The notes under the pieces are model-generated. The model saw only the letters and a list, made by a program, of their open reading frames with translations. It made no database searches and was not told the origin of the DNA. A program made the translations under genes and the position numbers. This document shows positions 14,711 through 44,702 of a stretch of 64,000 nucleotides of DNA, piece by piece (the stretch's first letter is position 1; each line of letters starts with the position of its first letter). Where the stretch lies: NCBI GenBank assembly GCA_019694595.1, contig JAIBBQ010000012.1, positions 1 to 64,000 on the forward strand. Reading direction: 5' to 3'. The DNA is from Myxococcaceae bacterium (GTDB lineage Bacteria; Myxococcota; Myxococcia; Myxococcales; Myxococcaceae).

Positions 14711-14743
14711 GGCCGGGAACTTCCTCGCGGGCGCCGCGACCGA

Positions 14744-15652
14744 CTACTGCGCCGCGGGCACGGTGAACGTCGGGTCGCAGGCCACCACGGGGCACGCGTT
14801 GGCGCGGCCCTTCCACTGCACGCGGGTGTACCCGTCAGGGCACAGCGGCAGGAAGAAGGTGCAGGGCCCCGGCGTCACGCACATCGACGGGAGCACGCAG
14901 CGGTCCTCGGTGCGGGTCTCGTTGTAGACCTTGCCGCCCTGGCACGCCGGCATCTTCACCAGCGGGCACGGCCCCGGCTGCTCGGGCAGCTTCAGGTACA
15001 CCTGGCTGGCGTCGAGGAGCGGGCCGTCGTTGGGCGTGGTGCCCAGCTTGGCCGCCACCAGCGCGCCGTGCTCCTCGATGCGGTTCGCGAGCCAGGTCTG
15101 GTCCACCGCCATCAGCGAGGCGCGGCCGACGGCCACGTCGCCCACGCGGGTGCTGCCGCCGGCGTTGAGCCGGGTGGCGAGCAGCTGCGGGCAGGGCGTG
15201 GTGAAGCACTCGATGCGGCTCTGCGCGACGCGGAAGAACGACTCGCCCGCCGCGCGGGTGATGCCGGGCAGACCGCGCCAGGCCGCGCTCACCAGGAACG
15301 GACGGGTGTTGAAGCGCGCCTCGGCCGGGCCCAGCTTGCCGTAGAAGACGACCGCCTCGCCCTGCAGCGCCGCGTCGATGCTCTCCTGCGAGAGGTTGGA
15401 GCCGCTGAAGTCGAGCCCGTTGACGTAGACCTCGCGCAGCGTGGCGCGGTTGACGTCGGCCACCCAGTAGCCGCCGCAGAGGGGCGAGATGCACTTGCGC
15501 ATGTCGTGACGCACGGTCACGTAGGTGCGCGCCGCGCTCCCGAGCTCGGCCGAGCCTTCGCCCTGGGGCGCGTCTTCGCCGACCAGCTGCGACTCGGTCA
15601 CGCCACAACCAACCATCACCACCACCGCCGACAGCGCCGCCATTCGGAACAT
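14744..15652 (-). CDS. DUF6748-like lipoprotein
   Basis: The start is ATG 15652 with GAGGA upstream; ATG 15643 is a second option. The 302-residue product has a lipoprotein signal (MFRMAALSAVVVMVGC). The mature part contains TYVTVRHDMRKCISPLCGG and YWVADVNRATLREVYVNG, which I recall from the DUF6748 group of myxobacterial proteins (tentative). The C-terminal 60 residues are cysteine-rich (CPLVKMPACQGG, CVLPSMC, CPDGY, CPVVACDPTF), probably a disulfide-stabilised module. No function is known. It is divergent from the hydrolase gene with only 20 bp between start codons. Confidence 0.7.
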   Translation of the reverse strand: MFRMAALSAVVVMVGCGVTESQLVGEDAPQGEGSAELGSAARTYVTVRHDMRKCISPLCGGYWVADVNRATLREVYVNGLDFSGSNLSQESIDAALQGEAVVFYGKLGPAEARFNTRPFLVSAAWRGLPGITRAAGESFFRVAQSRIECFTTPCPQLLATRLNAGGSTRVGDVAVGRASLMAVDQTWLANRIEEHGALVAAKLGTTPNDGPLLDASQVYLKLPEQPGPCPLVKMPACQGGKVYNETRTEDRCVLPSMCVTPGPCTFFLPLCPDGYTRVQWKGRANACPVVACDPTFTVPAAQ

Positions 15653-15672
15653 GAGAAGGTCCTCGTCCAGGT

Positions 15673-17307
15673 ATGAGACTACGGTGGGCGCAGGTAGCAC
15701 TGTGTGCGACAGCTGTCTACACCCTCCCCGGCTGCGGCCCGAAGGCCACCCAGACGGACGACCCGGCAGTCATCGAGGTGAGCCCGCAGCGGATCCGGCG
15801 GGAGATCTTCACCGTCGCCGGGGCCCCGGCCGACGCGATGCTTCCGGCGGCGATTGGCTCCCAGGTGGTGCGCTACCGCCTCGACTCGAGCCCGCCGAAG
15901 CCCGTGCGCGCCGTACTCCTCTTTCTCCCGGGGTTTCTCGAAGGCGCGGGGGCGGCCGACGCCTTCGCCCGCGCGGTGGTGCGGCGCTCGACGGCGGACG
16001 CGGCGCTCGAGGTCTGGGCGCTCGATCGCCGCAGCAACCTGGTGGAAGACCACAGCGGGCTCGACACCGCCATCGCCCAGGGCAACGCCAACCTCGCCAC
16101 CGGCTACTACTTCGAGAACGCCGCCATCGAAGGGAAGCGCTTCGACGGTTTCCTCACCGCGCCGCAGGCTGCCGCGATGGCCGAGTGGGGGCTGCCGACG
16201 ATGGTGGCCGACGTGCGCGCGGTGGTGGAACGCTTCCCGGCCGAGGCCCGCCGCGCGCGGGTCTTCCTCGCCGGGCACTCGCTCGGGGGCCAGTTCGCGG
16301 TGGAGTACGCCGCGTGGGACTCGGGCGGCAAGGCGCTGGGGGAAGAGCTCGCCGGCCTGCTCATGCTCGACGCGGTCACCGGCGGCGAAGGCCAGGCGGA
16401 CGCGGTCACCCAGCAGCAATACGAGGTCGACGGCGTGCCCGACCCCGACCTGGGGACCCAGCCGGGCCTCAAGGACATTCACGACGGCACGCCCTTCATC
16501 ACGCTGCCGCTGCTGGAGACGCGGCTCTACCCGGTGGGCGCCATCGCCGCGCTGCGCGCGCGCCTCAACCCCGACGGCTTCGACCCCGACGCCCAGCGCT
16601 CGCAGGCGCTCCAGCTCCTCTTCTCCACCGACAAGCTGCCGCGCATCACCAACGAGGCGGCGCTCGGCCTCGCCTTCGACGACCAGAGCTGCCCGCTCAC
16701 CGACGCGCGGGTGAGCCTGGGCCAGGCCACCGGGGGCCCGCTGGAAGAGGTGGCCTCGCCGCTCGGCGGAACGGTGCGGCGTCCGTCGGATCCGAGCGCG
16801 ACGTACCGGTGGCTGCGCTTCGACCAGGTGACGCCCGAGGAGCACACCGCGATGGCCGACTTCACCATCGCGTGGACGCGGCCCACGGTGGACTTCGGCG
16901 AGTGGTACTTCCCCACCCGGCTGGGGCTCGACGGTGTCGCTGCGGCCTCGCTGATCCTCGACCCGTCGAGCTGGCAGACGACCAGGTACGGCCTGCGCGC
17001 GAGCCACGGCCGCGAGCTCGAGCTTCCCATACTGGTGGAGGCCACCTCGCTCAGCGGCGGCACCGCCGCGGGGTACGACCACCTCAAGGCGCTCGCCGCG
17101 CCGCTGGGCGCAGGGCGCCCCTTCGCGGGAAAGACGCGCGCCGAGGCGGAAGCGTTCCGCGCCATCGCCCACCCCGAGCTCACCCACCTGGATCCGCTCA
17201 ACGGCGCCGACGTCCCCGGCACGGTCACCGGCACCTGGTACGACGCGGTGGCGAGCTTCCTCCTCGACCATTCGCCCACGGGCAGCGTCGGAATCGCGGT
17301 CCAGTAG
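15673..17307 (+). CDS. Alpha/beta-hydrolase lipoprotein
   Basis: A 544-residue predicted exported enzyme. The N-terminus (MRLRWAQVALCATAVYTLPGC) ends in a possible lipobox. An alpha/beta-hydrolase fold follows: AVLLFLPGFLEGAG looks like the strand 3 and oxyanion-hole region, VWALDRRSNLVED is a typical strand-4/loop segment, and VFLAGHSLGGQFAVEYAA carries the nucleophile elbow GHSLGG (nucleophile serine near residue 200). A distal acid and histidine are likely in the C-terminal part (IAHPELTHLDPLNG). Substrate is unknown; a lipase or esterase role is an inference. It shares a 20-bp intergenic gap with the divergent DUF6748-like gene. Confidence 0.75.
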   Translation: MRLRWAQVALCATAVYTLPGCGPKATQTDDPAVIEVSPQRIRREIFTVAGAPADAMLPAAIGSQVVRYRLDSSPPKPVRAVLLFLPGFLEGAGAADAFARAVVRRSTADAALEVWALDRRSNLVEDHSGLDTAIAQGNANLATGYYFENAAIEGKRFDGFLTAPQAAAMAEWGLPTMVADVRAVVERFPAEARRARVFLAGHSLGGQFAVEYAAWDSGGKALGEELAGLLMLDAVTGGEGQADAVTQQQYEVDGVPDPDLGTQPGLKDIHDGTPFITLPLLETRLYPVGAIAALRARLNPDGFDPDAQRSQALQLLFSTDKLPRITNEAALGLAFDDQSCPLTDARVSLGQATGGPLEEVASPLGGTVRRPSDPSATYRWLRFDQVTPEEHTAMADFTIAWTRPTVDFGEWYFPTRLGLDGVAAASLILDPSSWQTTRYGLRASHGRELELPILVEATSLSGGTAAGYDHLKALAAPLGAGRPFAGKTRAEAEAFRAIAHPELTHLDPLNGADVPGTVTGTWYDAVASFLLDHSPTGSVGIAVQ

Positions 17308-17413
17308 ACGCGCGGTCGCGGCCGGCGGCCCACGACGCGCCCCCTCTGCAGGGCCAGCAGACGTGGCGTACGCCTTGCTCAATGGGTTCAGACCGCTACG
17401 GTCCACACCCCCG

Positions 17414-20400
17414 ATGCCCCTCTCCTTCCTGCTTCCGCTCTGGCTCTCCGCGGCAACCGTGCAACCGGCGCAGGTGCCGGCGCAGGGCCGCCACGATGCG
17501 CTGGTCACTCTCGACGCCGCCGGCATGGTGCACCTCTCGGCGCGGTCGGGCCCCGGCACGGCGTGCACGGTGGTCGACCGGGTGCGCGGCCCCTTCGAAC
17601 GCTCGGGCGTCGCCGGCCGCAGCAACTGCGAGCTCGACCTGCTGCTCGACCAGGGCACCTACAAGCTGCGGCTCGACTCACCCCTCAAGGGCAAGGGCCA
17701 GGTGAAGGTCGAGGCCAAGCCCTTCGTGGAGCTGAACCCCAAGCCTCCGCGGCTGAGCGCCGGCGGCAAGCTCGAGCAGAAGCTGCGGCCGGGCGAGCAG
17801 GTGTCGTTCTGGGTGAGCGCCGTCAACGGGACCGAGCCGACCTTCCTGCGGGTCATCGGGCGGACCGCGGGCGAGCTGCGGCTGTGGCGCGCGGGCGAGT
17901 GGGTGGAGTCGGTTCCCTTCGCGCACGAGGAGTCGCGCACCGTCGCCGCGCACCCGGTGCACGAGTGGTTCCTCGCCGGCCCGCTCGAGGCGGGCGACCA
18001 CCTGGTCACCGTGTACGGGGCCAAGGCGCTCCCCTGGAGCAACGCCGCCGGCGACGACACGCTCACCGTGGAGCTGGGCTTCCCCGCGGCGCCGCCGGAG
18101 CGCGCGCTGCCCTTCACCCTCGGCCCGAGCGGCAGCCTCACCGTCGCGCTCCCCGCGGAGCCCACCGCCGCGCTGCTCACCTTGAAGCAGGCGCCGCTCG
18201 TGGCCACCGAGCTGTCCCTCGCCGCCGCCGACGGCAGCTGGGTGTCGCTGTCGCGGTGCGCGGTGCAGCCCAAGACCCTGCAGCCTTCCTGCGCGGCGAT
18301 GGGGAGCGCCTCGAAGCGGCTGGTGGCGCGGGTGCGCGGCGCGCCGGGCACCTCAGGCCTGCTCGAGTGGGCCCCGTCGTACCTGAGCGCGCGCGGCTGG
18401 GCGGGCGGGTACTACGGCGAGGCCACCACCAGCCTGCGCTTCAGCGCCCCGGCGCAGGACGCCCTGGTCGGCGTGCACGACCTGCCGCTCGACACCGACG
18501 CCGCACCGCTCGGCTGCCAGCTGGAGCGCGAGCTCAAGACCGGCCCCGAGGTGGTGGCGCGCGACGTGCTCACGCTCCGCGACGGCCAGCAGCTCGACAC
18601 CGAGTTCAACTACGCCAACGGCGCGGTGGTGTGGTTCGAGGTGACGCAGGCGAACCGCTACCGCGTCGTCACCAAGGGCGGCCGCAAGTCGGGCTGCAAC
18701 CTCTCGCGCCTCAAGCCCGACGGCGCGCTCGAGGTGCTGGCGAGCTCCCGGACCGACAGCGCGTGCGAGCTCTCGCAGCTGCTCACCCCGGGGCCGTACC
18801 AGCTCTCGCTCAACGGCGGCCTGTCCGGCATCGAGCACCTCGTCATCCGCGAGGACACGCAGCGTGCGCTGACCTCGGTGGCGCCGAAGGCCGGCTGCCT
18901 CCTCCGTGCACGGCTGACCGGCGGCGACTACCGGCTGGTGCTGACCCGCACCGGCACACTGACCGCGCGCGGCCTGGTGCTCACCCCGCTGCCGCTCGCT
19001 GCCAGCGTCCCGGTGCACTTCACCCTCGAGGCGGGCCAGGCGCTCACCCTGCCCCTCGCCGCCTCGGGCGAGCTCGCGGTGCGCGCCGCGGCCGGAGCGC
19101 CGTTCCGCTGCCAGGGCAAGGACACCGCGGGCGCGGAGTGCCGGGTGAGGGACAGCGCCGAGCTCTCGCTGGTCAACACCTCGCCGGGCCCGGTGTCCTT
19201 CGCGGTGGCGCGTCCGTCGCGCGAGCTCGAGCGCGGGGCGCCGCAGCCCTACGAGGCGCAGCCGCTGCCCTTGCCCAAGGCGGCACCCGGCACCCCGACC
19301 TACTTCGCCTTCGGAGCGAGAGAGTCGCGCTCGCTGGTGTTCGACGTGGCCGCCCCCGGACTCTACGAGGTCACCACCCAGGGGCTGCTCGCCACCGAGT
19401 GCGCGCTGCGGACCCCGGTCGCGCCCAGCGTGGCGCAGGACTCGGGCTCCGGCCGCGGCCGCAACTGCCTGGTCTCGGGGTACCTGCGGCCCGGGCGCTA
19501 CCGGACCACGGCCACCACCGTGGGCCAGAGCCAGGGCCGCGCCGCCCTGGTGCTCAACCGCCGCGAGGCGACCGACTTCGGCACCGTGGCCGCCGAGAGC
19601 GACGCCTTCTTCCGCGTCGCCGCCGGCGCGCTCGCCCAGCAGAAGCTGGTGGTGAAGACGGGCGGCGAGTACGAGCTCGCCACCACGGCGCAGGGCACCG
19701 CGCTCGCCTGCCGCCTGGAAGACGCCGACGGGTGGCCGCTCGAGCCGGTCCCCAGCGCCTGCAGCGGCCGCCGCAGCCTCGCGCCGGGCACCTACCTGTG
19801 GACGCAGCTGCCGCTCACCGTGGAGTCGATGCGCCACACCCAGCTGCAGCGGGTGCGCGCTCCTCGCGTGCTGGAAGGCAATCAGCCGCACGCGCTCGAC
19901 TTCTTCACCTGGTACGACGCGCGGCTGGGCAAGGACGGCAGCGACGAGTTCCGCTTCTCCCTCGAAGGCGCGGCGACCGTCGACCTGGTCCTCACCAACG
20001 GCATGCAGGGCCGGCTGCTCAAGCTCGAGCCCGGACAGAGCCCGAAGCCCATCGAGGTCATTCCCCCCATGGGCGGCGCTGCAGCGGCACCGGAGCCGGA
20101 AGGCGACGGTGAGAGCGAGCGGGAGTCGGAGCCCGAGCAGCCCCGCGAGGACGAAGGCGAGGGTGAGGGCGAAGGTGAAGGCGAGACCGAGCGCGCGGCC
20201 GAGCCGATGGCGGCCGGAGTGGCCCCGCTCGCCGCCACGCAGGCGCCTCCCCCGCCGTCGGGCTTCCAGCTGAACCTCGGGCCCGGCCAGTACCAGCTGA
20301 TCGCCGTGCACTCGCGCGGCGACGTGGGCATCGAGTACCAGCTCCACCTGGGCACCCGCGAACTCCAGCCCGGCATGACGCGCACCTTGAGCGCGCCTTC

Positions 20401-22627
20401 CGAGGTGCCGCTGCTCATTCCGCGCGACGGCACGCTGCGGCTGCGCACGCGCGGCGAGGTCGACGTGCGCTGCCGCCTCTTCGACGAGAAGAACCGGCTG
20501 GTGCTCGAAGGCTCGGAGAACGGCGCCGACTGGAACTGCGCCCTCGCCGAGCCCATCACCCAGGGGCGCTACCGCCTGGTGCTGGAGAGCGAGACCCAGC
20601 GCGCCGGCGACGTCGCGGTGGCGGTCGCGCTGGCGACGGTGGAGGACAAGGGCGAACTCAAGGACGGCCTCGAGCTGCCCCTCGCCGCGCCGGTCGCGGT
20701 GCTGTCGATTCCGGTGCCCGCCCAGGACGCCGTGCAGGACGTCACGCTCACCAGCGGCCAGCCGTTCAGCTGCGCGCTCGAGGACGGGGCCGGCGCGGTG
20801 GTGTTCCGCAAGACGCGGTCCACCGAGTGCGCGGTGCTCCTGCACCCGCTCCAGGAGAAGTACCGCCTGCGCGCCTGGACCACCGATGGCGCGGCGAAGG
20901 TGAAGGTGGCCTTCAAGAGCCGCGCGGTGACCGCCGGGAGCCCCGGCGCACTGCCTTCGAGCGGCGCGCTCAAGCTCGAGGTGCCCGCCCCGGGCCGCTA
21001 CCGCACCGGCTCCGCGGTCTTCTGTCTCGGCGCGACCGAGCGCGGGCTGCTCGCGCCGTGCAGCGGCGAGACCTCGCTCGCCCAGGGGCCGACGCTCTTC
21101 TCCACCCGCGCGGCGCTGAGCGGCTCGGTGGCGCTGGACGAGGTGCTGGGCCCGACGGGTCCGGTCGCCGACGCGCAGGACGTGGCGCTGTCCACCGCCG
21201 CGTGGCGGCAGACGCTCACCGCGCCCTACCCCGCGGTCTTCGTGGTGGAGGCTGCGGTGGCCCCAGGCGAGCGCACTGCGCCCGCCTGTCGCTTCGAGGG
21301 CAACGGCGGCGTGCTCGAGAGCCGCGCGCAGGTGTGCCTCGCCGCCAGCGCCGCTGGCCAGCGCGCCACGGTGCGCGCCTGGGCACCGGTGAGCGCCGAC
21401 GAGCCCGCGCCGGGTACCCTGCGACGCCGCGCGCTGCCGGTGCCGCGGTCGAGCACCACGCTGACCGCGGGACACCAGCGGCTCACCTGGACCGGGCCGT
21501 CGGCGCTCTTCGCGCTGCCGGGCGCCGCGCGCGCCGAGCTCCTCGTGCCCGCCGACGCCTGGGCCGTGCAGCTCGACGAGCAGGACCGCGCGCTCGACGT
21601 CTGCGGCCCCCGCGAAGGTCTTCACCGCTGCGTCTTCAGCGGCGCCAGGACGCGCCTGCTGCTGACCAGCGCCGAGTCCGCGATCGACGCCACCGTGCTC
21701 CTGTCGGTTCCCGCGCGCAGCACCACGCTCTCGGGCCTGTACGAGGAACAGTCCACCGAGGAAGGCACGCTCGACGTCGCGGTGCCCCAGGCCACCGAGG
21801 CGCGCAGCCTGGTGGTGGAAGGCGCCTCGGCCTGCGTGCTCGTGCGCAGCGACGGCGTGCGCGCCACCGGTTGCCGCCAGACGGTGCCCGCGTCCATCTC
21901 CGCCCGGCTGACCGTCGAGCACGGCGTGGGCCCCCTGCGCGCCGCCCTCTCGCCCGTCGGCAGGGAACGCAACGCCCTCTTCGGCGTCGAGGCCTCGTCC
22001 GGGCAAGCGGCGGAGCTCGTCTCGTCGACCTCCGCCCCGCTGGGTGCGCCGCGCTTCGAGCGCACGCTCCCCGTGAGCCGCTCCGCGGCGGTCCGGGTGC
22101 GCGCCGAGTCGGGCGTGTGCGGCGTCTTCCGCGGGAAGGAGCTGCTCGCGAGCTCCGGCCCGGGCAGCGGCTGCGACCTCACCCGGGTGCTGCCCGCCGG
22201 CAGCTACCGCCTCGTGGTGCGCCCCTTCGCCGGCGGTGCGCTCACCGGCGCCGTCTCGTGGAGCGAGGAAGCCGTCGTCCCGCTCGCCGAGGGCGTCGGC
22301 CCCGAGGAATGGCTCGGCCCCGGCCAGGTGCGCGTCTTCCAGTTCGAGACCAAGGGCCCCGGCAAGGTCGGCCTCGGCCTGCAGACCACCAGCGAGGCGC
22401 TCGACTGCCTCGTGGAGCGCGACGGCGCCAAGGTGCTCGGCGAAGGCTGCCACCAGTACCTCTCGCTCGAGCAGGGCCGCTACCTGCTGACCGTGCGGCA
22501 CCCGCGGGGCCCGTCGGCCGCGCCGCTGCGCTTCCGCCCCGTGCTCCTCGGCCTGCAAGGCAGCGCTGCCGAGGTGCCCGGCGAGTACCTGCAGGACCTC
22601 TTCCGCCGCATCGGAGCGACGCCATGA
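17414..22627 (+). CDS. Giant exported protein with about 15 cysteine-pair beta repeats
   Basis: A 1737-residue predicted periplasmic or surface protein. The chosen ATG gives a signal peptide (MPLSFLLPLWLSAATVQPAQ); a GTG at 17363 would add 17 residues. Almost the whole length consists of a repeated module of roughly 100 residues: a cysteine in a CxL-type strand, 15-25 residues later a second cysteine, then a terminal strand such as PGxYRLxL (TPGPYQLSLNG, RPGRYRTTATT, TQGRYRLVLES, PAGSYRLVVRP, EQGRYLLTVRH). This resembles PPC-like beta sandwiches. An acidic Glu/Gly linker interrupts it near residues 895-935. The stop overlaps the macroglobulin start (ATGA), so the two are translationally coupled. 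Function is unknown. Confidence 0.75.
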   Translation: MPLSFLLPLWLSAATVQPAQVPAQGRHDALVTLDAAGMVHLSARSGPGTACTVVDRVRGPFERSGVAGRSNCELDLLLDQGTYKLRLDSPLKGKGQVKVEAKPFVELNPKPPRLSAGGKLEQKLRPGEQVSFWVSAVNGTEPTFLRVIGRTAGELRLWRAGEWVESVPFAHEESRTVAAHPVHEWFLAGPLEAGDHLVTVYGAKALPWSNAAGDDTLTVELGFPAAPPERALPFTLGPSGSLTVALPAEPTAALLTLKQAPLVATELSLAAADGSWVSLSRCAVQPKTLQPSCAAMGSASKRLVARVRGAPGTSGLLEWAPSYLSARGWAGGYYGEATTSLRFSAPAQDALVGVHDLPLDTDAAPLGCQLERELKTGPEVVARDVLTLRDGQQLDTEFNYANGAVVWFEVTQANRYRVVTKGGRKSGCNLSRLKPDGALEVLASSRTDSACELSQLLTPGPYQLSLNGGLSGIEHLVIREDTQRALTSVAPKAGCLLRARLTGGDYRLVLTRTGTLTARGLVLTPLPLAASVPVHFTLEAGQALTLPLAASGELAVRAAAGAPFRCQGKDTAGAECRVRDSAELSLVNTSPGPVSFAVARPSRELERGAPQPYEAQPLPLPKAAPGTPTYFAFGARESRSLVFDVAAPGLYEVTTQGLLATECALRTPVAPSVAQDSGSGRGRNCLVSGYLRPGRYRTTATTVGQSQGRAALVLNRREATDFGTVAAESDAFFRVAAGALAQQKLVVKTGGEYELATTAQGTALACRLEDADGWPLEPVPSACSGRRSLAPGTYLWTQLPLTVESMRHTQLQRVRAPRVLEGNQPHALDFFTWYDARLGKDGSDEFRFSLEGAATVDLVLTNGMQGRLLKLEPGQSPKPIEVIPPMGGAAAAPEPEGDGESERESEPEQPREDEGEGEGEGEGETERAAEPMAAGVAPLAATQAPPPPSGFQLNLGPGQYQLIAVHSRGDVGIEYQLHLGTRELQPGMTRTLSAPSEVPLLIPRDGTLRLRTRGEVDVRCRLFDEKNRLVLEGSENGADWNCALAEPITQGRYRLVLESETQRAGDVAVAVALATVEDKGELKDGLELPLAAPVAVLSIPVPAQDAVQDVTLTSGQPFSCALEDGAGAVVFRKTRSTECAVLLHPLQEKYRLRAWTTDGAAKVKVAFKSRAVTAGSPGALPSSGALKLEVPAPGRYRTGSAVFCLGATERGLLAPCSGETSLAQGPTLFSTRAALSGSVALDEVLGPTGPVADAQDVALSTAAWRQTLTAPYPAVFVVEAAVAPGERTAPACRFEGNGGVLESRAQVCLAASAAGQRATVRAWAPVSADEPAPGTLRRRALPVPRSSTTLTAGHQRLTWTGPSALFALPGAARAELLVPADAWAVQLDEQDRALDVCGPREGLHRCVFSGARTRLLLTSAESAIDATVLLSVPARSTTLSGLYEEQSTEEGTLDVAVPQATEARSLVVEGASACVLVRSDGVRATGCRQTVPASISARLTVEHGVGPLRAALSPVGRERNALFGVEASSGQAAELVSSTSAPLGAPRFERTLPVSRSAAVRVRAESGVCGVFRGKELLASSGPGSGCDLTRVLPAGSYRLVVRPFAGGALTGAVSWSEEAVVPLAEGVGPEEWLGPGQVRVFQFETKGPGKVGLGLQTTSEALDCLVERDGAKVLGEGCHQYLSLEQGRYLLTVRHPRGPSAAPLRFRPVLLGLQGSAAEVPGEYLQDLFRRIGATP

Positions 22628-25600
22628 CCCGCCGCCTCTTCGCGCTCGTCGCCCTGCTCGGCGCCGCCGCCGCGCTCGCCCAGTACCAGCCCGCCGACAA
22701 GGGCCAGCGCCCCCAGGGCGGGGGTCTCAAGGTGCTGCCCGACACGTTCCTGCGCGGGTACGACCCGGTCACCGTCTACTTCTCGAGCGACGTCGTGGGC
22801 CCCGAGGCCACCGGCGACGACGGCGAGAAGTACCTCAAGCTCACGCCCGGCTGGCCCGGTGCCTACACCTGGGTCGACCGCCGCACCCTGCAGTTCCGGC
22901 CCGCGGAGCCGTGGCCCGCGCTCGCCCGCTTCCAGGTCGACGCGCAGGGCACGCGGAAGATCCTCACCACCATGATGTCGCCGCCGCAGGCCATGGCGCC
23001 GTCGCCCGGCTCCGAAGGGCTGCGCCCCTTCCGGGTGGTGACGCTGACCTTCCCCCAGGCGCTCCCGGCCGCGTCGCTCAAGAAGATGATCGCCCTCGAG
23101 CTGCGCGACCTGCCCGGCCTCGCCGACTCGCCGCGCCAGAAGGTGAGCGACTTCACCCTGGCACCCCTGCCGCGCGCTTCCCACCGCGACCCCGCGACCT
23201 GGGCGCTCACGCTCAAGGACGACGTCCCCGAAGGGAAGCTGCTGCTCGTCTCGGTGAGCCTGGCGCTGGGCTCCGAAGGCACCACCCTGTGGTCGGGCCG
23301 CGTCGCGACCCGCACCGCCTTCACGCTCAACGCGGTGCGCTGCGGGAACACCGAGCAGCCACTCGCTGCGGGCACCTCCGTCCCCAAGGACCTCGCGCTC
23401 GCCTGCGGCAACCGCGGCGACCAGCCGCAACTCTCCCTCTCCGCCAGCGTCGCCAACCTGACGCTCACCCAGCTCCACCAGCTGGTGCGCCTCGAGCCCG
23501 CGGTCGCCGACCTCCACTTCGCGACCTACGGCAGCCGCGTGCAGCTGCAGGGCAAGTTCGTCCCCGACACGCTCTACAAGCTGAGCCTCTCGCCCGCGGC
23601 CATCGAGGACGACTCGGGCCGGCCGCTCAAGCCGGTGCCGCCCACCGAGCTCTACTTCCACCTCGGCTGGCGGGCGTCGTTCCTCCGCTTCACCCAGGGC
23701 ACCGCGATGCTCGAGGCCAGGGGCCCGCGCATGCTCCCGCTCCAGGGCTACGGCGAGCCGCGCGCCGACGTGCGCATCTTCCGCGTCGACCCGCTGCACC
23801 CGGGCCTGTGGCCGTTCCCCGCGAGCCCCGTCTTCGTCGACGACCAGGCGGCACCTCCCTTCCCCGGTGAAGAGCCCGCGCTGCCCGCCACCCCCGGCGA
23901 GGTCGACGCGTCGTCCCTCACCCGGCACCTCAAGCTCCTCGGCTCTCCGCTGGTGTCGAAGGTGGTCGAGCTGCCGTCCGGCCAGCGGGCGAACCCGGCG
24001 CGCTTCGGGCTCGACCTGAAGCCCCTGCTCGACCCGGTGGTCGGCGCGTCGCGCCCGGGCACCTACCTCGTCGGCCTCCGCCGGCTCACCGGCCGCGGCG
24101 AGCGCGCGTGGATGCGGGTGCAGGTGACCAACCTCGCGGTCACCTCCGCCGAGGAGCGGGACAAGGCGGTGCTCTTCGTCCGCACCCTGGACACCGCCGA
24201 GCCGGTGCGCGGCGCGGTGCTCACCCTGGAAGGCCTGCTGGTGCGCCCGGAGTCGCCGCCGGCCGGCTGGCAGCCGCAGACCCGGGTGCAGCTCACCTCC
24301 GACGACGCGGGCCGCATCGTGCTGCCCGCCCGCACCGGCTGGCAGCGCTTCACCCGCATCACCGTCGCCAAGGACGACGACGTGCTGGTCTTCAGCCCCG
24401 ACCAGGCGCCGCCGCGCTTCGCCGACAACCACTGGTACTCGGGCGACCGCTGGCTGTCGTGGCTCCTCAACGAGAGCGCCCCGCCCCCGCGCAACGACGC
24501 CACCCTGGGCTTCGTCTTCACCGAGCGCCCCATCTACAAGCCGGGCGAGAAGGTCTTCCTCAAGGCCTTCGTGCGCAGCAAGAAGAGCGGTGAGCTGCAG
24601 CTGCCGCCGCGCCTCGAGAGCTACGGCCTGCAGGTCGAGAGCGAGGACGGGCAGTCGTGGCTCCCCAAGGTCACCCGCACCGCGCTCGGCGGCCTCGCGG
24701 CCGAGTTCGAGGAGTCCAACGCGCCGTCGGGGCAGTACACCGCCAGGCTCTTCGAAGGCGACCCGCAGCACGTGGTCGCCACCCGCTCCTTCCGCATCGA
24801 GGCCTACCGGGTGCCCACCTTCGAGGTGCAGGTGGTGGCGCCGGGCAAGGCGCGCCTCGACGCCCCCATCAAGGTGAAGGCGGTCGCCCGCTACTTCGCG
24901 GGTGGCAACGTGGCCAACGCCCCCGTCAAGTGGACCGTCACCCAGCGGCCGTACGCCTGGCAGCCCAAGGGGCTCCCCGGCTTCCTCTTCGCGTCCTCGA
25001 GCCAGTTCGCCCGGCCGCAGGCGCAGCGCCCCCAGGGCGCCACGTCGCAGGACGGTGAGCTCGACGACTCCGGCGCCTCCGAGCTGCCGCTGAACCCCCA
25101 GCTCGACCTCGACGGGAGCGCGCGCGTCTACCACCTGGAAGCCACCGTCACCGGGCCCGACGAGCAGCAGGTCACCAGCACCGCCGAGGTGAAGGCGCTG
25201 CCGCCCTTCGCCCTGGGCCTCAAGCTGCCCCGCTACCTGGAGAAGGCGCAGAGCCTCTCGCCCGAGGTGGTGGCGGTGGGCATCGACGACGCGCCGCTCG
25301 CCGGCCAGGACATCACCGTCAAGCTCATCAAGCGCACCTGGCACTCGACGCTGCGCGAGACGGCCTTCGCCACCGGGCAGCCCAAGTACGTCACCGAGCA
25401 GCAGGACGTGCCGGTCGCCGAGAAGTCGTGGAGCTCGCAGGCGAAGCCGTCGGGGCCGGTCTTCGAGCTCAAGGACGCGGGCGTCTACGTGGTGGAGCTG
25501 AGCGCCCGCGACAAGCTCGGGCGCGTGCAGACGCTCTCCGCCGACCTCTACGTCGGCGGGCCGGCGCCGGTGGCCTGGCAGAAGTCGCGCGACGGCGTCT

Positions 25601-28359
25601 TCGAGCTCAAGCCCGACCAGGCGAAGTACCTGCCCGGCCAGACCGCCCACGTGGTGGTGCAGAGCCCGTGGGCCTCCGCGCGCGCGCTCGTCATCCTCGA
25701 GGAGCCGCGCGGCAACGTGTACCAGTGGAAGGACGTCAGCGGCGGCAAGGCGGTCATCGACGTGCCGCTCGACGCCCACCACGTCCCCAACCTCCCGCTG
25801 CACGTGGTGCTGATGCGCGGCCGGCTGGGCGAAGGCCAGAGCGACGACTCGCGCTACCGGCCCGCCACCGTGGCCGCCTCGGTGGACCTGGAGCTCGAGC
25901 CCGCGAGCCACCGCGTCACCGTGGCGGTGAAGCACCCCGAGCAGGCGCGGCCCGGCACCGTGCAGGACTTCGTCATCTCCCTGAGCGACGACAAGCAGCG
26001 CCCGGTGGGCGGCGAGGTCACCTTCTGGCTGGTCGACGAGGCGGTGCTCTCGCTCGCGCCCGAAGGCTCGCTCGACCCGCTCACCGCGCTCATCCGCGCC
26101 AACGCGCGCACCACCAGCCTCCACGACACGCGCAACCTGGTCATCGGCCGGCTGAGCGAGCTCGACGAGGAGCCCGGCGGCGACGGCAGCGACGAGGAGC
26201 AGAACGGCGGGAAGAAGATCATCCGCAAGAACTTCCAGACGGTGCCCTACTACCAGGCGACCCTGGTGGTCCCCGCGAGCGGCACCCTGAAGGTGCCGGT
26301 GAAGCTGTCCGACGACCTCACCAACTTCCGCGTGCGCGCGGTGGCGGTGAGCGGGGCGACCCGCTTCGGCGTCAAGCAGTCCACCTTGAAGGTCCGCCTG
26401 CCGGTGCTGGTCCAACCCCAGCTCCCCCGCTTCGTGCGGGTGGGCGATCGCTTCTGGCCGGGCGCGCTCGCGCGGCTCGTGGAGGGGAGCGATGGCCCAG
26501 GCACGGTGGAAGTGGCGCTCTCCGGCCCCGTCGACGCGGCGCCGAAGACCGAAGGCGTGGCGCTCAAGGCCAACCAGGCGCTCAGCGTGCAGACCCAGGC
26601 GCTGGTGAAGGCCATCGACGGCGAAGGGGTGCTCACCGTGCGGGGCTCGGTGGTGCGCAGCGCCGACAAGGCGTCCGACGCCTTCGAGGTGAAGCTGCCG
26701 GTGCTCCCCGACCGCTCGGTGGAGAAGGTGCTCGCGGTGAAGACGCTCCCGGTGGGGAAGACCACCCTCGACCCGTTCCCTGAAGCCGCCCGGCCCGGCA
26801 CCGCGCGGCAGACCTTCAACTTCACCAACGAGCCCGGGCTCCTCGAGCTCGCCACCAGCCTCGACTACCTCGCCGCCTACCCCCACGGCTGCCTCGAGCA
26901 GAAGATGAGCCAGCTCGCGCCCGACCTCGCGCTGGCCTCGGTGCTCAAGAAGCTCGAGCTCGAGACGCGCTTCACGCCGCAGCTGCCGCGCAACGTGGCG
27001 CACCTGGTGGAAGAGCTCGCGACCCACCAGGACGACCTCGGCTTCCTGAGCTACTGGCCCGGCACCGGCGGCGACATCGGCGTCACCGCCCAGGGCGTGG
27101 AGTTCCTCGCGCTGGTCAAGAAGGCCGGCCTGCCGGTCGACGAGAAGGTGCGCACCCGGGCGCTGGAGGCCCTCAAGCGCTCGCTCCGCTCCGACTTCCG
27201 CGGCGGCCTGGGCGCCTACCGCGTCGACGAGCAGGCGGCGGCGCTCCGGGCGCTGTCGCGCGCCGGCGAGCTCGACGAGCACTACCTGCTCGAGCTGTTC
27301 GCCAGGCGAAAGGACTTCGGGCCGTCCGCGCTCGCCGACCTCGCGCTGGCGATGAACGAGCGGCCGCAGGTCTTCTCCAGCAACCTCGCCTCGCTCCAGA
27401 GCGAGCTCTGGGACTCGGTGGTCTTCAAGCTGGTGAAGGGCGCCAAGGTCTACGACGGCCTGCGCCGCGAGCGCACGAGCTGGACCGGCGAGTACCTGGG
27501 CTCCTCCACCGCCTCCACCGCCCAGGCGCTGGAAGCCCTGGTCCGCCTGAGCCCCACCGACGAGCGGCTCCCGCTGGTGCGCGACGGCCTGCTCGCCCGC
27601 TCCGTGGGCCCGCGCGGCTTCGGCTCCACCTACGAGCACCGGCGGGCGGTCGCGGCGCTCGGCGCGTACCTCGAACGTTCGCGCGTCAGCCAGCCCCAGG
27701 TGCACGTCACCGTGCCGGGCGCGGCCGAGGTGGCGCTCGACGAGAGCAAGAAGGCGGCGCGGCGCACCGTGGCCGGCGCCGACCCGCTGTCGCTCACCGT
27801 CAGCGGCGCGCCGGTGAGCGCACGCGTCGCCTACAGCTTCCTCCCCCAGGCGCCGGGCGATCAGGTCACCCCCAGGAAGAGCGGGCTCCTCGTCTCCCGC
27901 AGCCTCACCTGGCTGCACCCCGACGGCAGCGCCCCCACCCACCACGACGACCAGCCCGGCGCCACCCTCACCCTCGCCCCCGGCGACGTGGTGGAGGTGC
28001 ACGCCCAGCTGACGCTCGACGCCCCGCGCAACCACGTCGCGCTGGTGGTGCCCTTCGCCGCCGGCTTCGAGCCGCTCAACCCCAACCTCGCCAACGCCTC
28101 CAGCGACGCCAGGCCGTCGCAGGCCGACAGCACCGCGCCGACCTACGCCCAGCGGCTCGACCAGGAAGTCCGCTACTACTTCACGTCGCTCGGCGCGGGG
28201 ACCCACAGCTTCCACTTCCGCCTGCGCGCGACCAGCGAAGGCAGCTTCGTGCACCCGGCGCCCTACGCCGAGCTGATGTACCAGGAAGACGTGCGCGGCC
28301 GCGGCGCGGGCATGCGCATCGTCGTCGAGGGCGCGAAGCAGAAGGCGAAGGGCAAGTAG
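22624..28359 (+). CDS. Bacterial alpha-2-macroglobulin with thioester
   Basis: A 1911-residue member of the bacterial A2M family (YfhM/YfaS type), proposed periplasmic protease traps that protect the envelope. The signal peptide (MTRRLFALVALLGAAAALAQ) has no lipobox, unlike E. coli YfhM. Macroglobulin-like beta domains occupy the first 1150 residues (typical FTERPIYKPGEKVFLKAFVR near 635). The A2M core segment TVPYYQATLVVPASGTLKV lies near 1210. The thioester motif is intact as C1423-L-E-Q1426 within YPHGCLEQ, followed by the alpha-helical thioester domain. It starts in a 4-nt overlap with the giant repeat gene and ends 8 nt before pbpC, the classic A2M-pbpC pairing. Confidence 0.92.
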   Translation: MTRRLFALVALLGAAAALAQYQPADKGQRPQGGGLKVLPDTFLRGYDPVTVYFSSDVVGPEATGDDGEKYLKLTPGWPGAYTWVDRRTLQFRPAEPWPALARFQVDAQGTRKILTTMMSPPQAMAPSPGSEGLRPFRVVTLTFPQALPAASLKKMIALELRDLPGLADSPRQKVSDFTLAPLPRASHRDPATWALTLKDDVPEGKLLLVSVSLALGSEGTTLWSGRVATRTAFTLNAVRCGNTEQPLAAGTSVPKDLALACGNRGDQPQLSLSASVANLTLTQLHQLVRLEPAVADLHFATYGSRVQLQGKFVPDTLYKLSLSPAAIEDDSGRPLKPVPPTELYFHLGWRASFLRFTQGTAMLEARGPRMLPLQGYGEPRADVRIFRVDPLHPGLWPFPASPVFVDDQAAPPFPGEEPALPATPGEVDASSLTRHLKLLGSPLVSKVVELPSGQRANPARFGLDLKPLLDPVVGASRPGTYLVGLRRLTGRGERAWMRVQVTNLAVTSAEERDKAVLFVRTLDTAEPVRGAVLTLEGLLVRPESPPAGWQPQTRVQLTSDDAGRIVLPARTGWQRFTRITVAKDDDVLVFSPDQAPPRFADNHWYSGDRWLSWLLNESAPPPRNDATLGFVFTERPIYKPGEKVFLKAFVRSKKSGELQLPPRLESYGLQVESEDGQSWLPKVTRTALGGLAAEFEESNAPSGQYTARLFEGDPQHVVATRSFRIEAYRVPTFEVQVVAPGKARLDAPIKVKAVARYFAGGNVANAPVKWTVTQRPYAWQPKGLPGFLFASSSQFARPQAQRPQGATSQDGELDDSGASELPLNPQLDLDGSARVYHLEATVTGPDEQQVTSTAEVKALPPFALGLKLPRYLEKAQSLSPEVVAVGIDDAPLAGQDITVKLIKRTWHSTLRETAFATGQPKYVTEQQDVPVAEKSWSSQAKPSGPVFELKDAGVYVVELSARDKLGRVQTLSADLYVGGPAPVAWQKSRDGVFELKPDQAKYLPGQTAHVVVQSPWASARALVILEEPRGNVYQWKDVSGGKAVIDVPLDAHHVPNLPLHVVLMRGRLGEGQSDDSRYRPATVAASVDLELEPASHRVTVAVKHPEQARPGTVQDFVISLSDDKQRPVGGEVTFWLVDEAVLSLAPEGSLDPLTALIRANARTTSLHDTRNLVIGRLSELDEEPGGDGSDEEQNGGKKIIRKNFQTVPYYQATLVVPASGTLKVPVKLSDDLTNFRVRAVAVSGATRFGVKQSTLKVRLPVLVQPQLPRFVRVGDRFWPGALARLVEGSDGPGTVEVALSGPVDAAPKTEGVALKANQALSVQTQALVKAIDGEGVLTVRGSVVRSADKASDAFEVKLPVLPDRSVEKVLAVKTLPVGKTTLDPFPEAARPGTARQTFNFTNEPGLLELATSLDYLAAYPHGCLEQKMSQLAPDLALASVLKKLELETRFTPQLPRNVAHLVEELATHQDDLGFLSYWPGTGGDIGVTAQGVEFLALVKKAGLPVDEKVRTRALEALKRSLRSDFRGGLGAYRVDEQAAALRALSRAGELDEHYLLELFARRKDFGPSALADLALAMNERPQVFSSNLASLQSELWDSVVFKLVKGAKVYDGLRRERTSWTGEYLGSSTASTAQALEALVRLSPTDERLPLVRDGLLARSVGPRGFGSTYEHRRAVAALGAYLERSRVSQPQVHVTVPGAAEVALDESKKAARRTVAGADPLSLTVSGAPVSARVAYSFLPQAPGDQVTPRKSGLLVSRSLTWLHPDGSAPTHHDDQPGATLTLAPGDVVEVHAQLTLDAPRNHVALVVPFAAGFEPLNPNLANASSDARPSQADSTAPTYAQRLDQEVRYYFTSLGAGTHSFHFRLRATSEGSFVHPAPYAELMYQEDVRGRGAGMRIVVEGAKQKAKGK

Positions 28360-28367
28360 CCGACCCC

Positions 28368-30722
28368 GTGCGACCGAGCGCGCTCACGCCCCGGAGGCGC
28401 AAGGCGGTGCTCGCCGCCGCGCTCGTGGTGTGCCTGGGCCTCGGCGTGCGGCTGTGGCGCTCGCTCGACGGCACGCTCGTGGTGCGCGCCCCGAGCCACG
28501 TGCTGCTCGACCGGCACGGCGCCTTCCTCGGCGAGCTGAGCGCTCCCGACGGCGCGCTCGGCTACTGGCCGCTGCCCGCGGCACTCCCCGACAAGCTGGT
28601 GCGCGCCACGCTGGAGACCGAGGACCGCCGCTTCCGCGAGCACCCGGGCATCGCGCCGTCGTCCATCGCCCGGGCCGTCTGGCAGAACCTGAGCTCGGGC
28701 CACGTCGTCTCCGGCGCCTCGACCATCGCCATGCAGGTGGCGCGGCTGCAGCACCCGCGCGCGCGCACCCTGTGGGCCAAGGCCCGCGAGGCGGCGGAGG
28801 CGCTGCTGCTGGTCGACCGCCACGGACACGATCTCGTGCTGCGGCAGTACCTGACGCTCGCGCCGTACGGCGAGCGGGTGCACGGCGCGGCGCGCGCTTC
28901 GCAGCTCTACTTCGGCAAGCCGGTCGAGGACCTGAGCTGGCTGCAGGCGACCTTCCTCGCCGCGCTGCCGCAGCAGCCGGTGAAGATGTCGCCCTGGACC
29001 AAGGACGGCCTCGCCCGCGCCATGGCGCGCACCCGCCGCATCCTCGCCACCTTGGAGGCCCGCGGGGTCATCGACGCCGAGACGCACCGGCAGGCGCTCG
29101 TCTCCGAGCTCGGCCTGGTGAAACGGCCCGAGCGCCCCGAGGCCGCGATGCACGCGCTCCTCGCTGCCGCTCCCCTCGCCCGTCGGACCGGAGCGCCGAC
29201 CATCGTGCGCACCAGCATCGACCTCGAGCTGCAGCGCGACGCCCAGCGCCAGGTGGAACTCACCTTGCGCCGGCTGCGCGGCCAGGGCGCCGGCAACGCC
29301 GCGGCGCTGGTGGTCTCGCCCGCGACCGGCGAGGTGCTCGCCTACGTCGGCAGCGCCGGCTACTTCGAGGCGCAGGACAAGGGCGCCATCGACTACCTCG
29401 CCGCGCGCCGTTCGCCCGGCTCGGCGCTCAAGCCCTTCCTCTACGCGCTCGCCCTGCAGGACGGGCGGCTCTCCCTCGCCACCCCGGTCCCCGACGTGCC
29501 CACCGAGTTCCCCACCGCGCTGGGGGCCTGGGTGCCCGAGAACATGACCCACACCTTCCTCGGGCCGATGCTCGCCCGCGAGGCGCTGGGCAACTCGCGC
29601 AACCTCCCCGCGCTCCACGTGCTGCAGCAGGTGGGGGTCGACCGCGCGCTGGAGTTCTTCGGCCGCGGCGGCGTGCGGCGCATCTCCAGCGACCCCGGCG
29701 AATACGGGCTCACGTTGGCGCTGGGGAGCCTGCCGGTGACCGCGCGCGAGCTCGCGGTCCTCTACTCCGCGCTCGCCAACCACGGCGTGCCCCGCCCGCT
29801 CACCTTCCTCCCGGTCGAAGCGGTGACCGCCGCCGAGCCGCTGCTCCACCCCGACGCCGCCGACGCCATTCTCCACGTGCTGGCCGACCCCGAGGCGCGC
29901 CGGCCGGGCTTCCCCCCCGGCGGCCCGCTCGACTTCGACACCCCGGTGGCCATCAAGACCGGCACCTCCCAGGGCCACCGTGACGCGTGGGCCGTGGCGG
30001 TGAGCCACCAGCTCCTCGTGGTGGGCTGGGTGGGCAACGCCGACTGGCAGAAGATGAACGGCGTGTCCGGCGCGATGGGGGCAGCGCCGCTGGTGCACCA
30101 GCTCTTCGAGCGCGTGAACGCCCCCGCGTCGGTCATCACCTCGCCCCAGGGCTGGAGCGCGGTGGAGATCTGCCCGCTGTCTGGTCGCCGCCCGGGTCCG
30201 CTGTGCCCTCACCACCGCACCGAGTACTTCGCCAAGGGCACCGAGCCACTGGAGGCCTGCCCGTTCCACCAGGCGGTGCCCATCGACGTGCGCACCGGGC
30301 TGCGCGCGAGCGCCGCCTGCGACGCGCGGTACGTCTCGCGGCGGCCGCTGCTCGACCTGCCCCCCGAGTACGGGAGCTGGGCGCGCGCGCAGCACCTCGA
30401 CGTCGCCCCTCCGGGCGAGAGCCCCCTGTGCCCGTCGGGCCCGCCGCCCGCGCCGGCGCTGGCCATCACCGAGCCGCGCTCCCGCACGCGCTACCTCTTC
30501 GACCCTTCGACGCCGCGCGAGTTCTCCACCGTGCGGCTGAGCGCCCGGGTGACGCCCGCCACCGAGGACATCACCTGGCTGGTCGACGGCCGTCCGGTCG
30601 GGCAGGTCGGCTGGCCACACGAGCTGCGCGTGTCGCTGGCGCCTGGCCCGCACGAGGTGCGCGCCGCCTTCAGCCACCACGCCGTGCTCAGCGCCCCGGT
30701 GACGGTGGTCGTCGAGGACTGA
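28368..30722 (+). CDS. pbpC: Penicillin-binding protein 1C
   Basis: A 784-residue bifunctional peptidoglycan synthase starting at GTG, 8 nt after the macroglobulin gene. An N-terminal membrane anchor (residues 12-30) precedes the GT51 glycosyltransferase domain with the ETEDRRFREHPG motif and GASTIAMQVARL. The transpeptidase domain has all three motifs: SALK (catalytic S352), SRN and KTGTS. The C-terminal 80 residues (SRTRYLFDPSTP to the end) match the BiPBP_C Ig-like domain of PbpC. It acts at the cytoplasmic membrane. Pairing with A2M is known in other Gram-negatives and suggests a joint role in repairing or protecting the wall during protease attack. Confidence 0.93.
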   Translation: MRPSALTPRRRKAVLAAALVVCLGLGVRLWRSLDGTLVVRAPSHVLLDRHGAFLGELSAPDGALGYWPLPAALPDKLVRATLETEDRRFREHPGIAPSSIARAVWQNLSSGHVVSGASTIAMQVARLQHPRARTLWAKAREAAEALLLVDRHGHDLVLRQYLTLAPYGERVHGAARASQLYFGKPVEDLSWLQATFLAALPQQPVKMSPWTKDGLARAMARTRRILATLEARGVIDAETHRQALVSELGLVKRPERPEAAMHALLAAAPLARRTGAPTIVRTSIDLELQRDAQRQVELTLRRLRGQGAGNAAALVVSPATGEVLAYVGSAGYFEAQDKGAIDYLAARRSPGSALKPFLYALALQDGRLSLATPVPDVPTEFPTALGAWVPENMTHTFLGPMLAREALGNSRNLPALHVLQQVGVDRALEFFGRGGVRRISSDPGEYGLTLALGSLPVTARELAVLYSALANHGVPRPLTFLPVEAVTAAEPLLHPDAADAILHVLADPEARRPGFPPGGPLDFDTPVAIKTGTSQGHRDAWAVAVSHQLLVVGWVGNADWQKMNGVSGAMGAAPLVHQLFERVNAPASVITSPQGWSAVEICPLSGRRPGPLCPHHRTEYFAKGTEPLEACPFHQAVPIDVRTGLRASAACDARYVSRRPLLDLPPEYGSWARAQHLDVAPPGESPLCPSGPPPAPALAITEPRSRTRYLFDPSTPREFSTVRLSARVTPATEDITWLVDGRPVGQVGWPHELRVSLAPGPHEVRAAFSHHAVLSAPVTVVVED

Positions 30723-32360: not shown

Positions 32361-32924
32361 CTACTGCGGCGAGCCAGCGCTGGCGGCCGGCGCGGCCAGG
32401 CCGGCGTCGGCAGCGCCCACCAGCATCCCGTCGAGCAGCGGAGCCACGCGGGAGACCAGCGGCTCGGCCACGTTCTCCAGCGCCTCGCTGCCACGCTCAT
32501 GCTCGAACTGCAGCAGCGCGGGCAGGTCCACCGCGTCCTGCGACGGCGCGGTGCCGGCGCGCGCGGCGGTGAGCTTCACCGGCACGCTCCAGCGGTAGCG
32601 ACCTTCGATCTGCGAGAAGAACCGGGTGCGCGCCTCGACCAGCAAGGCGAAGGGCGCGTCGGTGGCTGCCCGCAGCGCCGCGAAGCGCTCGGCGGTGAGC
32701 CGCTGTCCCTGCAGCTGGGCCACCGGCACCTCGCGCACCTCGAGGTTGCGCGACTGCGCCACGTCCTTGAGCCGCGCCCGGAAGGCGTCGGGCACCTGCA
32801 CCTCGTCGTCCACCACGATGGCCACCGCCAGCGCGGCCGGCTGCTCCAGCCGCTGCGGCGCCACCTTGGGCAGGCAGCCCGAGAGCACCACGCCCACCCC
32901 GAGCAGCAGCGCCCTCAGAACCAT
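32361..32924 (-). CDS. Small lipoprotein downstream of the porin
   Basis: A 187-residue lipoprotein: MVLRALLLGVGVVLSGC is a clean signal with lipobox LSGC. The mature part starts LPKVAPQRLEQPAALAVAIVVDDEV and continues with alternating strands and helices ending in an Ala-rich tail. This resembles other bacterial lipoproteins with an ABC-transporter-auxiliary-like fold, but no family is certain. The start lies inside the end of the porin-like gene (10-nt overlap), so translation is probably coupled. It is the last gene of the starch locus. Confidence 0.7.
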   Translation of the reverse strand: MVLRALLLGVGVVLSGCLPKVAPQRLEQPAALAVAIVVDDEVQVPDAFRARLKDVAQSRNLEVREVPVAQLQGQRLTAERFAALRAATDAPFALLVEARTRFFSQIEGRYRWSVPVKLTAARAGTAPSQDAVDLPALLQFEHERGSEALENVAEPLVSRVAPLLDGMLVGAADAGLAAPAASAGSPQ

Positions 32925-34411: not shown

Positions 34412-34502
34412 ACCACCTGGCCGCATGGCGCCAACCCCGGATCTCCCATCGAGCCCCTGGGAACGCCAGGTGCGCTCCCCTCCTCGCAACTCGAGTGACG
34501 AA

Positions 34503-34586
34503 GGGTTCGGTCTCTCGATCCGATCCCCACCCGTGGGAGGGGGCGAACGCCCCGCCGTCGTCGCGGGCGGGAGCCCTCGCGACGAC
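34503..34586 (-). repeat. Three-hairpin repeat element, copy 2
   Basis: Lies 1 nt beyond the stop codon of the isoamylase-like gene, in the gap before the porin gene. Hairpin 1 is GGGTTCGG 34503-34510 with CCGATCCC 34520-34527 (one T:T mismatch). Hairpin 2 is GGGGCG-AA-CGCCCC (34540-34553). Hairpin 3 is GTCGTCGCG 34557-34565 with CGCGACGAC 34578-34586, loop GGCGGGAGCC plus CT. The outer part of hairpin 3 differs from copies 1 and 3 yet pairs perfectly, so the change is compensated on the opposite arm. Confidence 0.85.
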
Positions 34587-34587
34587 A

Positions 34588-37098: not shown

Positions 37099-37108
37099 CG
37101 AAGGACTC

Positions 37109-39307: not shown

Positions 39308-39388
39308 CACGACTCCGTTGGGCGTTCCGGCACCGCGCGAGGGCTTCTCGTACTCGGGGCCCTGCCGCAATTCAACCCGACCCGAGGC

Positions 39389-39856
39389 TCACGCCCGGAC
39401 CGCGGACAGCACGCCGCGCACCAGGTACGCCAGCACCATCAGGTGCACGTGCCCCGCCCGCGTCGCGTCGTCGCGCGCGCCGGTGACCTTGATGGAGAAC
39501 GCGTTCAGGAACGCGAGCACCGAGTCACCCACCTCGGCCGTCATCCGCTGCTCCAGCGCCGCGCCCGACAGCGAGGCCACCGACTCCACCGCCTTCTTCG
39601 CCTTCGGTTCCGCCGGCGCCGCCACCTTCTTCGCGTCCAGATCGCCGCGCAGGAAGTACGCCGCCAGCATCAGCTCCACCCGCTGGGCGGTCTGCGCCTC
39701 GGCCGCCTTGGGGAAGAGCTTCTTCGCCAGGATCACGAAGAACGCCACCAGCGCGTCGCCCGCCTCCACGTGCCGCCGCTCGTCGAACTTCGACTGCGGC
39801 ATCGCCGAGAGCGTGAGCCCGGCCGCGCGCGTCTGCGCCAGCGTGGGAATCGCCAT
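39389..39856 (-). CDS. Two-repeat small protein in the starch operon
   Basis: A 155-residue protein of unknown family, encoded 4 nt after the GH13 gene starting at 42110 and 81 nt before the alpha-amylase gene. It has no signal peptide. The N- and C-terminal halves align: VEAGDALVAFFVILAKKLF then QRVELMLAAYFLRGDL in the first half, AEVGDSVLAFLNAFSIKVTG then GHVHLMVLAYLVRGVL in the second. Both halves are helical and are joined by a Lys/Ala linker (residues 75-90). The tight spacing implies cotranscription with the starch enzymes, but its role is unknown. Confidence 0.7.
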   Translation of the reverse strand: MAIPTLAQTRAAGLTLSAMPQSKFDERRHVEAGDALVAFFVILAKKLFPKAAEAQTAQRVELMLAAYFLRGDLDAKKVAAPAEPKAKKAVESVASLSGAALEQRMTAEVGDSVLAFLNAFSIKVTGARDDATRAGHVHLMVLAYLVRGVLSAVRA

Positions 39857-39860
39857 CGCC

Positions 39861-44611: not shown

Positions 44612-44702
44612 CGCTCCGCGGGTACTCCACCTCGGCCTCCCCGGGCAACCGCGCACGAAACTTCTGGTGAATCCTTCTCCGGCCGCCGAGGCTCCAAGGG
44701 GC

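Follow-up and report, generated by a model that had tools for sequence, protein, structure and literature searches.

Does the A2M-PbpC system of bacteria include, in some lineages, a third and very large protein, and what might such a protein do? Bacterial alpha-2-macroglobulins (A2Ms) are related to the protease-trapping macroglobulins of human blood, and for two decades they have been discussed as partners of PbpC in a system of two genes; the purpose of this system lacks proof so far, with defense against proteases as the standing hypothesis. The window analyzed here (the whole 64,000-nt stretch of a contig from a Myxococcaceae bacterium) contains, immediately upstream of such a gene pair, a gene for a giant protein in which an earlier note, made from the DNA letters, had suggested a third component of an envelope defense against proteases or prey and predator enzymes. 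The A2M-PbpC system itself is already known, and the family of the giant is, so far as we searched, undescribed: no published description was found in the literature covered, in which subscription journals were thinly represented, and priority is not established because that coverage is incomplete.

Layout of the locus

The genes for the giant, the A2M and PbpC follow one another in this order on the + strand:

17414..22627, + strand: gene for the giant protein, 1737 aa; predicted to be secreted, all-beta and multi-module, without a database family (ORF, family searches, AlphaFold models)
17414..17473, + strand: N-terminal signal peptide region of the giant (MPLSFLLPLWLSAATVQPAQ), without a lipobox (sequence; plain signal peptides across 67 orthologs)
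22624..28359, + strand: A2M, 1911 aa, with a plain signal peptide (MTRRLFALVALLGAAAALAQ) and without a lipobox (sequence, domains, A2M tree)
26887..26901, + strand: thioester motif GCLEQ of the A2M, residues 1422-1426 (sequence)
28368..30722, + strand: pbpC (PBP1C), with transglycosylase, transpeptidase and BiPBP_C domains; motifs EDRRFREH, SALK, SRN and KTGTS present (domain searches and sequence)

The frame of the giant opens with an ATG and carries 30 cysteines; an alternative in-frame GTG start at 17363 would lengthen the product to 1754 aa. Its stop codon shares the letters ATGA with the A2M start codon (ATG at 22624), confirming the 4-nt overlap reported in the earlier note, and pbpC starts 8 nt past the A2M stop. 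The A2M scored over the cut-offs for PF01835, PF07703, PF00207 and PF17973 (MG2, bait region, A2M and bMG10), and PbpC over that for TIGR02073. By its domain set, its CXEQ thioester and its pbpC neighbor the A2M is of type I, except that a plain signal peptide stands where ECAM has the lipobox for inner-membrane anchoring. The giant had no family match in Pfam, NCBIfam or PADLOC, and none at E < 0.5 among PDB sequences; the PADLOC anti-phage defense models returned zero families for the giant, the A2M and PbpC alike.

A hydrolase gene upstream (15673-17307) was considered as a fourth member of the unit and dropped, because a relative lies upstream in just 2 of the 80 loci described below (L043 and L067). 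Divergent to this lipoprotein hydrolase gene, at 14744-15700 on the - strand, lies a gene for a DUF6748 protein. Further downstream, a run of genes at 32915-44851 on the - strand, encoding a LamB-type porin, three alpha-amylase family proteins and a GH15 protein, is a starch or maltodextrin utilization cluster.

Conservation of the gene triplet

One scan of 84,980 species genomes yielded 80 giant loci, distributed over Myxococcota, Acidobacteriota, Eiseniibacteriota, Nitrospirota, Elusimicrobiota, Poribacteria and Pseudomonadota, Alphaproteobacteria among them, with the cassette found also on Rhizobium plasmids. The length of the protein is even across the family (mostly 1680-1900 aa). An A2M gene lies directly downstream of the giant on the same strand in 66 of the 69 loci with room to see it, the exceptions being two Poribacteria and L095, and pbpC comes next after the A2M in 56 of 59 loci (in L068 it lies upstream, and L080 and L082 have none near). 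The proposal of a third component thus holds over several phyla. The same note had taken the 4-nt overlap as a sign of stoichiometric coupling, and as a general feature this fails: the spacing between giant and A2M varies between -4 nt and some tens of nt and exceeds 100 nt in a few loci. Only the three genes stay together, and the Rhizobium records differ in their flanks.

Within Alphaproteobacteria the giant is patchy, considering that a class-wide sample had a clear giant in 3 of 142 genomes. The cassette of L094, a record named Mycobacterium sp. KBS0706, is nearest to those of Acetobacteraceae in the A2M tree, and the organism name of that record is probably wrong. An apparent fusion of giant and A2M in G180, an open frame of 4329 codons, was rejected: the long open frame runs across the giant in a different reading frame and owes its length to high G+C. 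In two genera of large genomes from the family of the window itself (g23 and g26), no giant was found in the genomes listed. Since the giant occurs in Rhizobium and Methylocystis and the cassette is missing from these two genera, a link with predation is weakened.

Pairing with one A2M clade

We then compared giants and A2Ms across 193 Myxococcota genomes, setting aside four weak giant matches (E > 1e-10). The bMG10 domain was present in 158 of the 193 genomes and a clear giant in 47. Scores against the window A2M split sharply: those of the giant clade exceeded 700 bits where the sequence was long enough, and all others stayed below 345. By this score 46 of the 47 giant-bearing genomes have a giant-clade A2M, while the remaining one (G069) has a diverged A2M fragment, 38% identical, beside its giant; none of the 193 genomes has the A2M clade without a giant. 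The resulting co-occurrence has a Fisher p of 7e-44, a value that ignores kinship. The association with A2M that the earlier note proposed to test across Myxococcota therefore stands for one A2M clade and not for A2Ms generally, because most Myxococcota genomes have A2Ms and no giant.

In a tree of 83 A2Ms, the 47 giant-linked proteins and two from Poribacteria formed one clade (SH-aLRT 100, stem 0.92), and all 34 sampled giant-less A2Ms fell outside it. The PbpCs of giant loci likewise form a clade of their own. Pairwise distances among giants, A2Ms and PbpCs correlate (r=0.98), which can be explained by shared operon history alone. In Poribacteria (giants L076 and L119; A2Ms L143 and L144) the giant and the clade A2M lie far apart in the genome, so that linkage alone does not account for the pairing. 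No pbpC turned up in the vicinity of the clade A2M in Poribacteria, whose giant lies upstream of genes that by eye resemble lpxB and lpxK of lipid A synthesis. Taken together, these results place the giant in a unit of three genes, PbpC included, as the near-obligate partner of a single A2M clade. That it is an unrelated neighbor, with no functional link to the genes that follow it, we regard as highly improbable, given synteny over several phyla, joint clades and co-occurrence even where the genes are unlinked.

The CXEQ thioester is kept in 46 of 60 clade A2Ms and lost in 14, in several lineages, with the giant retained. Two alternative roles bear on this observation. One is that the giant, instead of tethering its own A2M, serves it as a chaperone or lock or regulates its activity, so that the A2M stays unfired or its bait is presented. 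The near-perfect pairing and the persistence of the giant after thioester loss would fit such a role, as does MagD, which works without a thioester and with partner proteins (PMC5764988); however, no sequence feature points to a lock and a much smaller protein would suffice, and we consider this role unlikely. The other is that the unit builds the wall or maintains the envelope, with A2M and giant as structural parts and no role in defense. Intact motifs in the window PbpC, loss of the thioester in several lineages and the occurrence of the cassette in free-living methanotrophs as well as symbionts speak for it, but most clade A2Ms retain CXEQ, and the A2M domains with their bait region are recognizable, so that it seems to us rather improbable.

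Predicted modules and fold of the giant

The giant was modeled in two overlapping AlphaFold runs built from 64 homologs, covering residues 1-1180 (pLDDT 89.4, pTM 0.77) and 560-1737 (pLDDT 86.4, pTM 0.62), with module borders drawn manually on the DSSP string. Apart from a short helix at the C terminus, the models consist almost entirely of beta structure, arranged in about 17 tandem beta-sandwich modules, of which 14 contain a close cysteine pair:

17468..17728, + strand: module 1, residues 19-105, Cys 51/72; among the most conserved modules (model, conservation, sequence)
17765..18076, + strand: module 2, residues 118-221, no Cys (model, conservation)
18104..18484, + strand: module 3, residues 231-357, Cys 282/293 (model, conservation)
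18488..19033, + strand: modules 4 and 5, residues 359-540, Cys 428/451 and lone Cys 368 and 495 (model, Cys mapping)
19040..19213, + strand: module 6, residues 543-600, Cys 566/576 (model, conservation)
19298..19591, + strand: module 7, residues 629-726, Cys 663/685; GLYxVxTxGLLxT...GRGRN...YLRPGRY, strongly conserved among phyla (conservation)
19598..19876, + strand: module 8, residues 729-821, Cys 766/783, DGWPL motif (model, conservation)
19913..20371, + strand: module 9, residues 834-986, split by an acidic loop (model, conservation)
20072..20248, + strand: acidic low-complexity disordered loop, residues 887-945; pLDDT < 50 over 889-934 (model)
20378..20656, + strand: module 10, residues 989-1081, Cys 1020/1042, DWN motif, PPC-like look (conservation)
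20672..22273, + strand: modules 11-16, residues 1087-1620, the least conserved part of the giant; Cys 1120/1139, 1204/1216, 1292/1308, 1397/1406, 1474/1487 and 1569/1587 (model, conservation)
22301..22558, + strand: module 17, residues 1630-1715, Cys 1665/1679, well conserved (model, conservation)
22580..22609, + strand: C-terminal helix, residues 1723-1732, in the conserved tail P-x-E-Y-L-x-x-x-x-x-R-x-G (model, conservation)

The C-terminal helix and tail may serve as a docking peptide. Profile-profile comparison of non-overlapping windows detected internal repeats, with E = 9e-14 for residues 639-729 against 996-1086 and E = 6e-13 for about 691-799 against 1593-1695, and by these profiles the modules are mutually related beyond chance. 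All modeled modules are beta-sandwiches and not unrelated folds, and the suggestion of about 15 modules, each with a cysteine pair, was roughly right in its count. It went astray in treating the pair as the hallmark of the repeat. Besides two lone residues, the cysteines of the giant form 14 close pairs with a spacing of 9-23 residues, and among Myxococcota orthologs each of the 30 is conserved in 22-23 of 23 rows; in 45 other family members there is no cysteine at most of the 30 columns, and several giants have 0-2 cysteines in total. We therefore rejected the pairs as a defining repeat or metal site, since they are mostly absent outside Myxococcota. In the AlphaFold models both cysteines of a pair usually lie in or beside neighboring strands of the same module, and on a plain reading the pairs would be lineage-specific disulfides. 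The position of the acidic disordered segment likewise differs between lineages: it lies in module 9 in most Myxococcota and in module 10 in Alphaproteobacteria (about residue 1066), whereas some records from Acidobacteriota, Elusimicrobiota and Nitrospirota have it in the C-terminal tail, a pattern that looks like repeated, independent gain.

When the models were compared with the PDB using Foldseek, the ColG tandem collagen-binding domain 5iku ranked first for the N-terminal half and third for the C-terminal half (probability 1.0, E 2.6e-6 and 5e-7, with low TM-scores as whole chains were compared). For the C-terminal half, cubilin CUB domains came first, and the jelly rolls of HA70, neuropilin and SIDT1 also followed. 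The closest solved folds would thus be collagenase PPC-type domains and CUB jelly rolls, a likeness that, because whole-chain TM-scores are low, concerns module type only. Sequence comparison did not reach these families. The window giant had no match to PPC (PF04151), for which the best score in the family was 23.8 bits against a cut-off of 25.9, and membership was rejected after single proteins and two module alignments had been tried without reaching the gathering cut-off. Alignments of two giant modules found no significant solved relative in the PDB, Pfam CUB had zero matches in the giant family, and a PKD hint on module 7 appeared in 3 of 36 members (best E 5e-4). The region of modules 7 and 10 gave weak matches (E 1e-4 to 1e-8) to proteins of about 480-850 aa (G067, G073, G080, G046 and others), which suggests that smaller relatives are built from the same module type.

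In 10 alphaproteobacterial giants the N terminus is extended by 141-180 residues (extended giants are L023 at 13446-19085, L024, L077, L086, L096, L111, L113, L115, L116, L118, L121 and L122). At this N terminus, an LprI domain (PF07007, cut-off 22) scored 36.5 bits in rhizobial giants and 24.2 in L077; L023 and L077 are over the cut-off, L086 is just under it (21.8), and the rest were judged by length and a similar start. These extensions, and nearest folds that are binding modules (collagen-binding ColG s3, cubilin CUB, HA70), would suit a giant that does the capture or recognition itself, its modules binding incoming enzymes, glycans or peptidoglycan, the fused LprI of some Alphaproteobacteria blocking or regulating wall hydrolases, and A2M and PbpC acting afterwards. 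Yet LprI was found in alphaproteobacterial giants only, a beta-sandwich likeness reveals no ligand, and in Salmonella the LprI protein ScwA is tied to wall enzymes but has no role in lysozyme resistance (PMC7933661). We consider a capture role fairly unlikely.

Membrane anchors and a proposed scaffold

The giants have plain signal peptides across 67 orthologs, with no convincing lipobox. Among giant-clade A2Ms, 65 of 67 lack a lipobox pattern match; on inspection by eye the matches in the remaining two were dismissed as false, the pattern lying inside a hydrophobic stretch that is followed by a normal cleavage site. PbpC is the only one of the three proteins with a membrane anchor. In giant-less, pbpC-linked Myxococcota A2Ms, a lipobox-like cysteine was present in 17 of 17, three of them read by eye and some of the set close relatives. 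The difference falls on a single branch of the A2M tree and therefore represents one evolutionary event, not many. A rule that an A2M has either a lipobox or a giant was rejected as universal: Rhizobium has a second, distant A2M (L151, L153) that is pbpC-linked and giant-less and also lacks a lipobox.

Our preferred reading, to which we give an even chance, is that the three genes form one periplasmic unit in which the giant is a modular beta-sandwich scaffold holding the non-lipidated A2M near PbpC and peptidoglycan. The scaffold would bind its own A2M and keep it close to the membrane-anchored PbpC and to the wall, which would bring wall repair and the trapping of proteases (or another, related A2M function) together at one site; in the giant-less myxobacterial systems the lipid anchor of the A2M would do the positioning. 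We prefer this scaffold because it best accounts together for the lack of anchors, the large size, the type of module and the parallel with the Mag complex discussed below. Slightly short of even, in our estimate, is the broader proposal that an undescribed family of fixed size (about 1700 aa, about 17 CUB/PPC-like modules) forms a three-part periplasmic complex with its A2M clade and PbpC, and that the three have spread together across phyla. The complex would be comparable to a rudimentary complement system that brings its own scaffold, a protein partner having taken over from the lipid anchor of the A2M.

A third, very large protein alters what must be purified, deleted and assayed in work on A2M and PbpC, and the scaffold would explain, in a form open to test, how an A2M without a lipid anchor is kept in place. 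Large genes annotated as "hypothetical protein" in Rhizobium, Methylocystis, Myxococcota and other genomes can also be assigned to this family.

Comparison with known systems

The locus resembles E. coli ECAM (yfhM-pbpC) and Salmonella Sa-A2M (type I with PBP1c) in having a thioester A2M beside PbpC, both periplasmic. In contrast to these characterized type I systems, which consist of two genes and in which the A2M, as in E. coli ECAM, is anchored to the inner membrane (PMC4498604), here the gene for the giant comes first and the A2M lacks a lipobox. The Pseudomonas Mag complex (magABCDEF) offers a parallel on this point, as it likewise combines a lipobox-less A2M with co-encoded partner proteins on which, in Mag, the A2M depends: MagD has neither lipobox nor thioester, and MagB is needed for its membrane association and stability (PMC5764988). 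However, the Mag complex has six genes and no PbpC, whereas the unit in the window has three genes including pbpC; the window A2M and most clade A2Ms carry CXEQ, unlike MagD; and the six-gene operon with MagA, MagB and MagF was not found here. MagB differs from the giant in its length of 589 residues and its predicted transmembrane helix (PMC5764988).

At the level of modules, PPC domains (PF04151, the collagen-binding domains of ColG) may resemble the predicted modules of the giant in fold and look, to judge by Foldseek hits with low whole-chain TM-scores, and the sequence match lies below significance. CUB proteins (cubilin, neuropilin, PCPE-1) share tandem jelly-roll modules, with two cysteines per module in the Myxococcota giants; the likeness is one of fold only, with low whole-chain TM-scores, and the cysteine pairs of the giant are missing outside Myxococcota. 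Rhizobial giants, finally, carry the domain of LprI proteins (PF07007) as an N-terminal fusion, and this domain is missing from the giant of the window.
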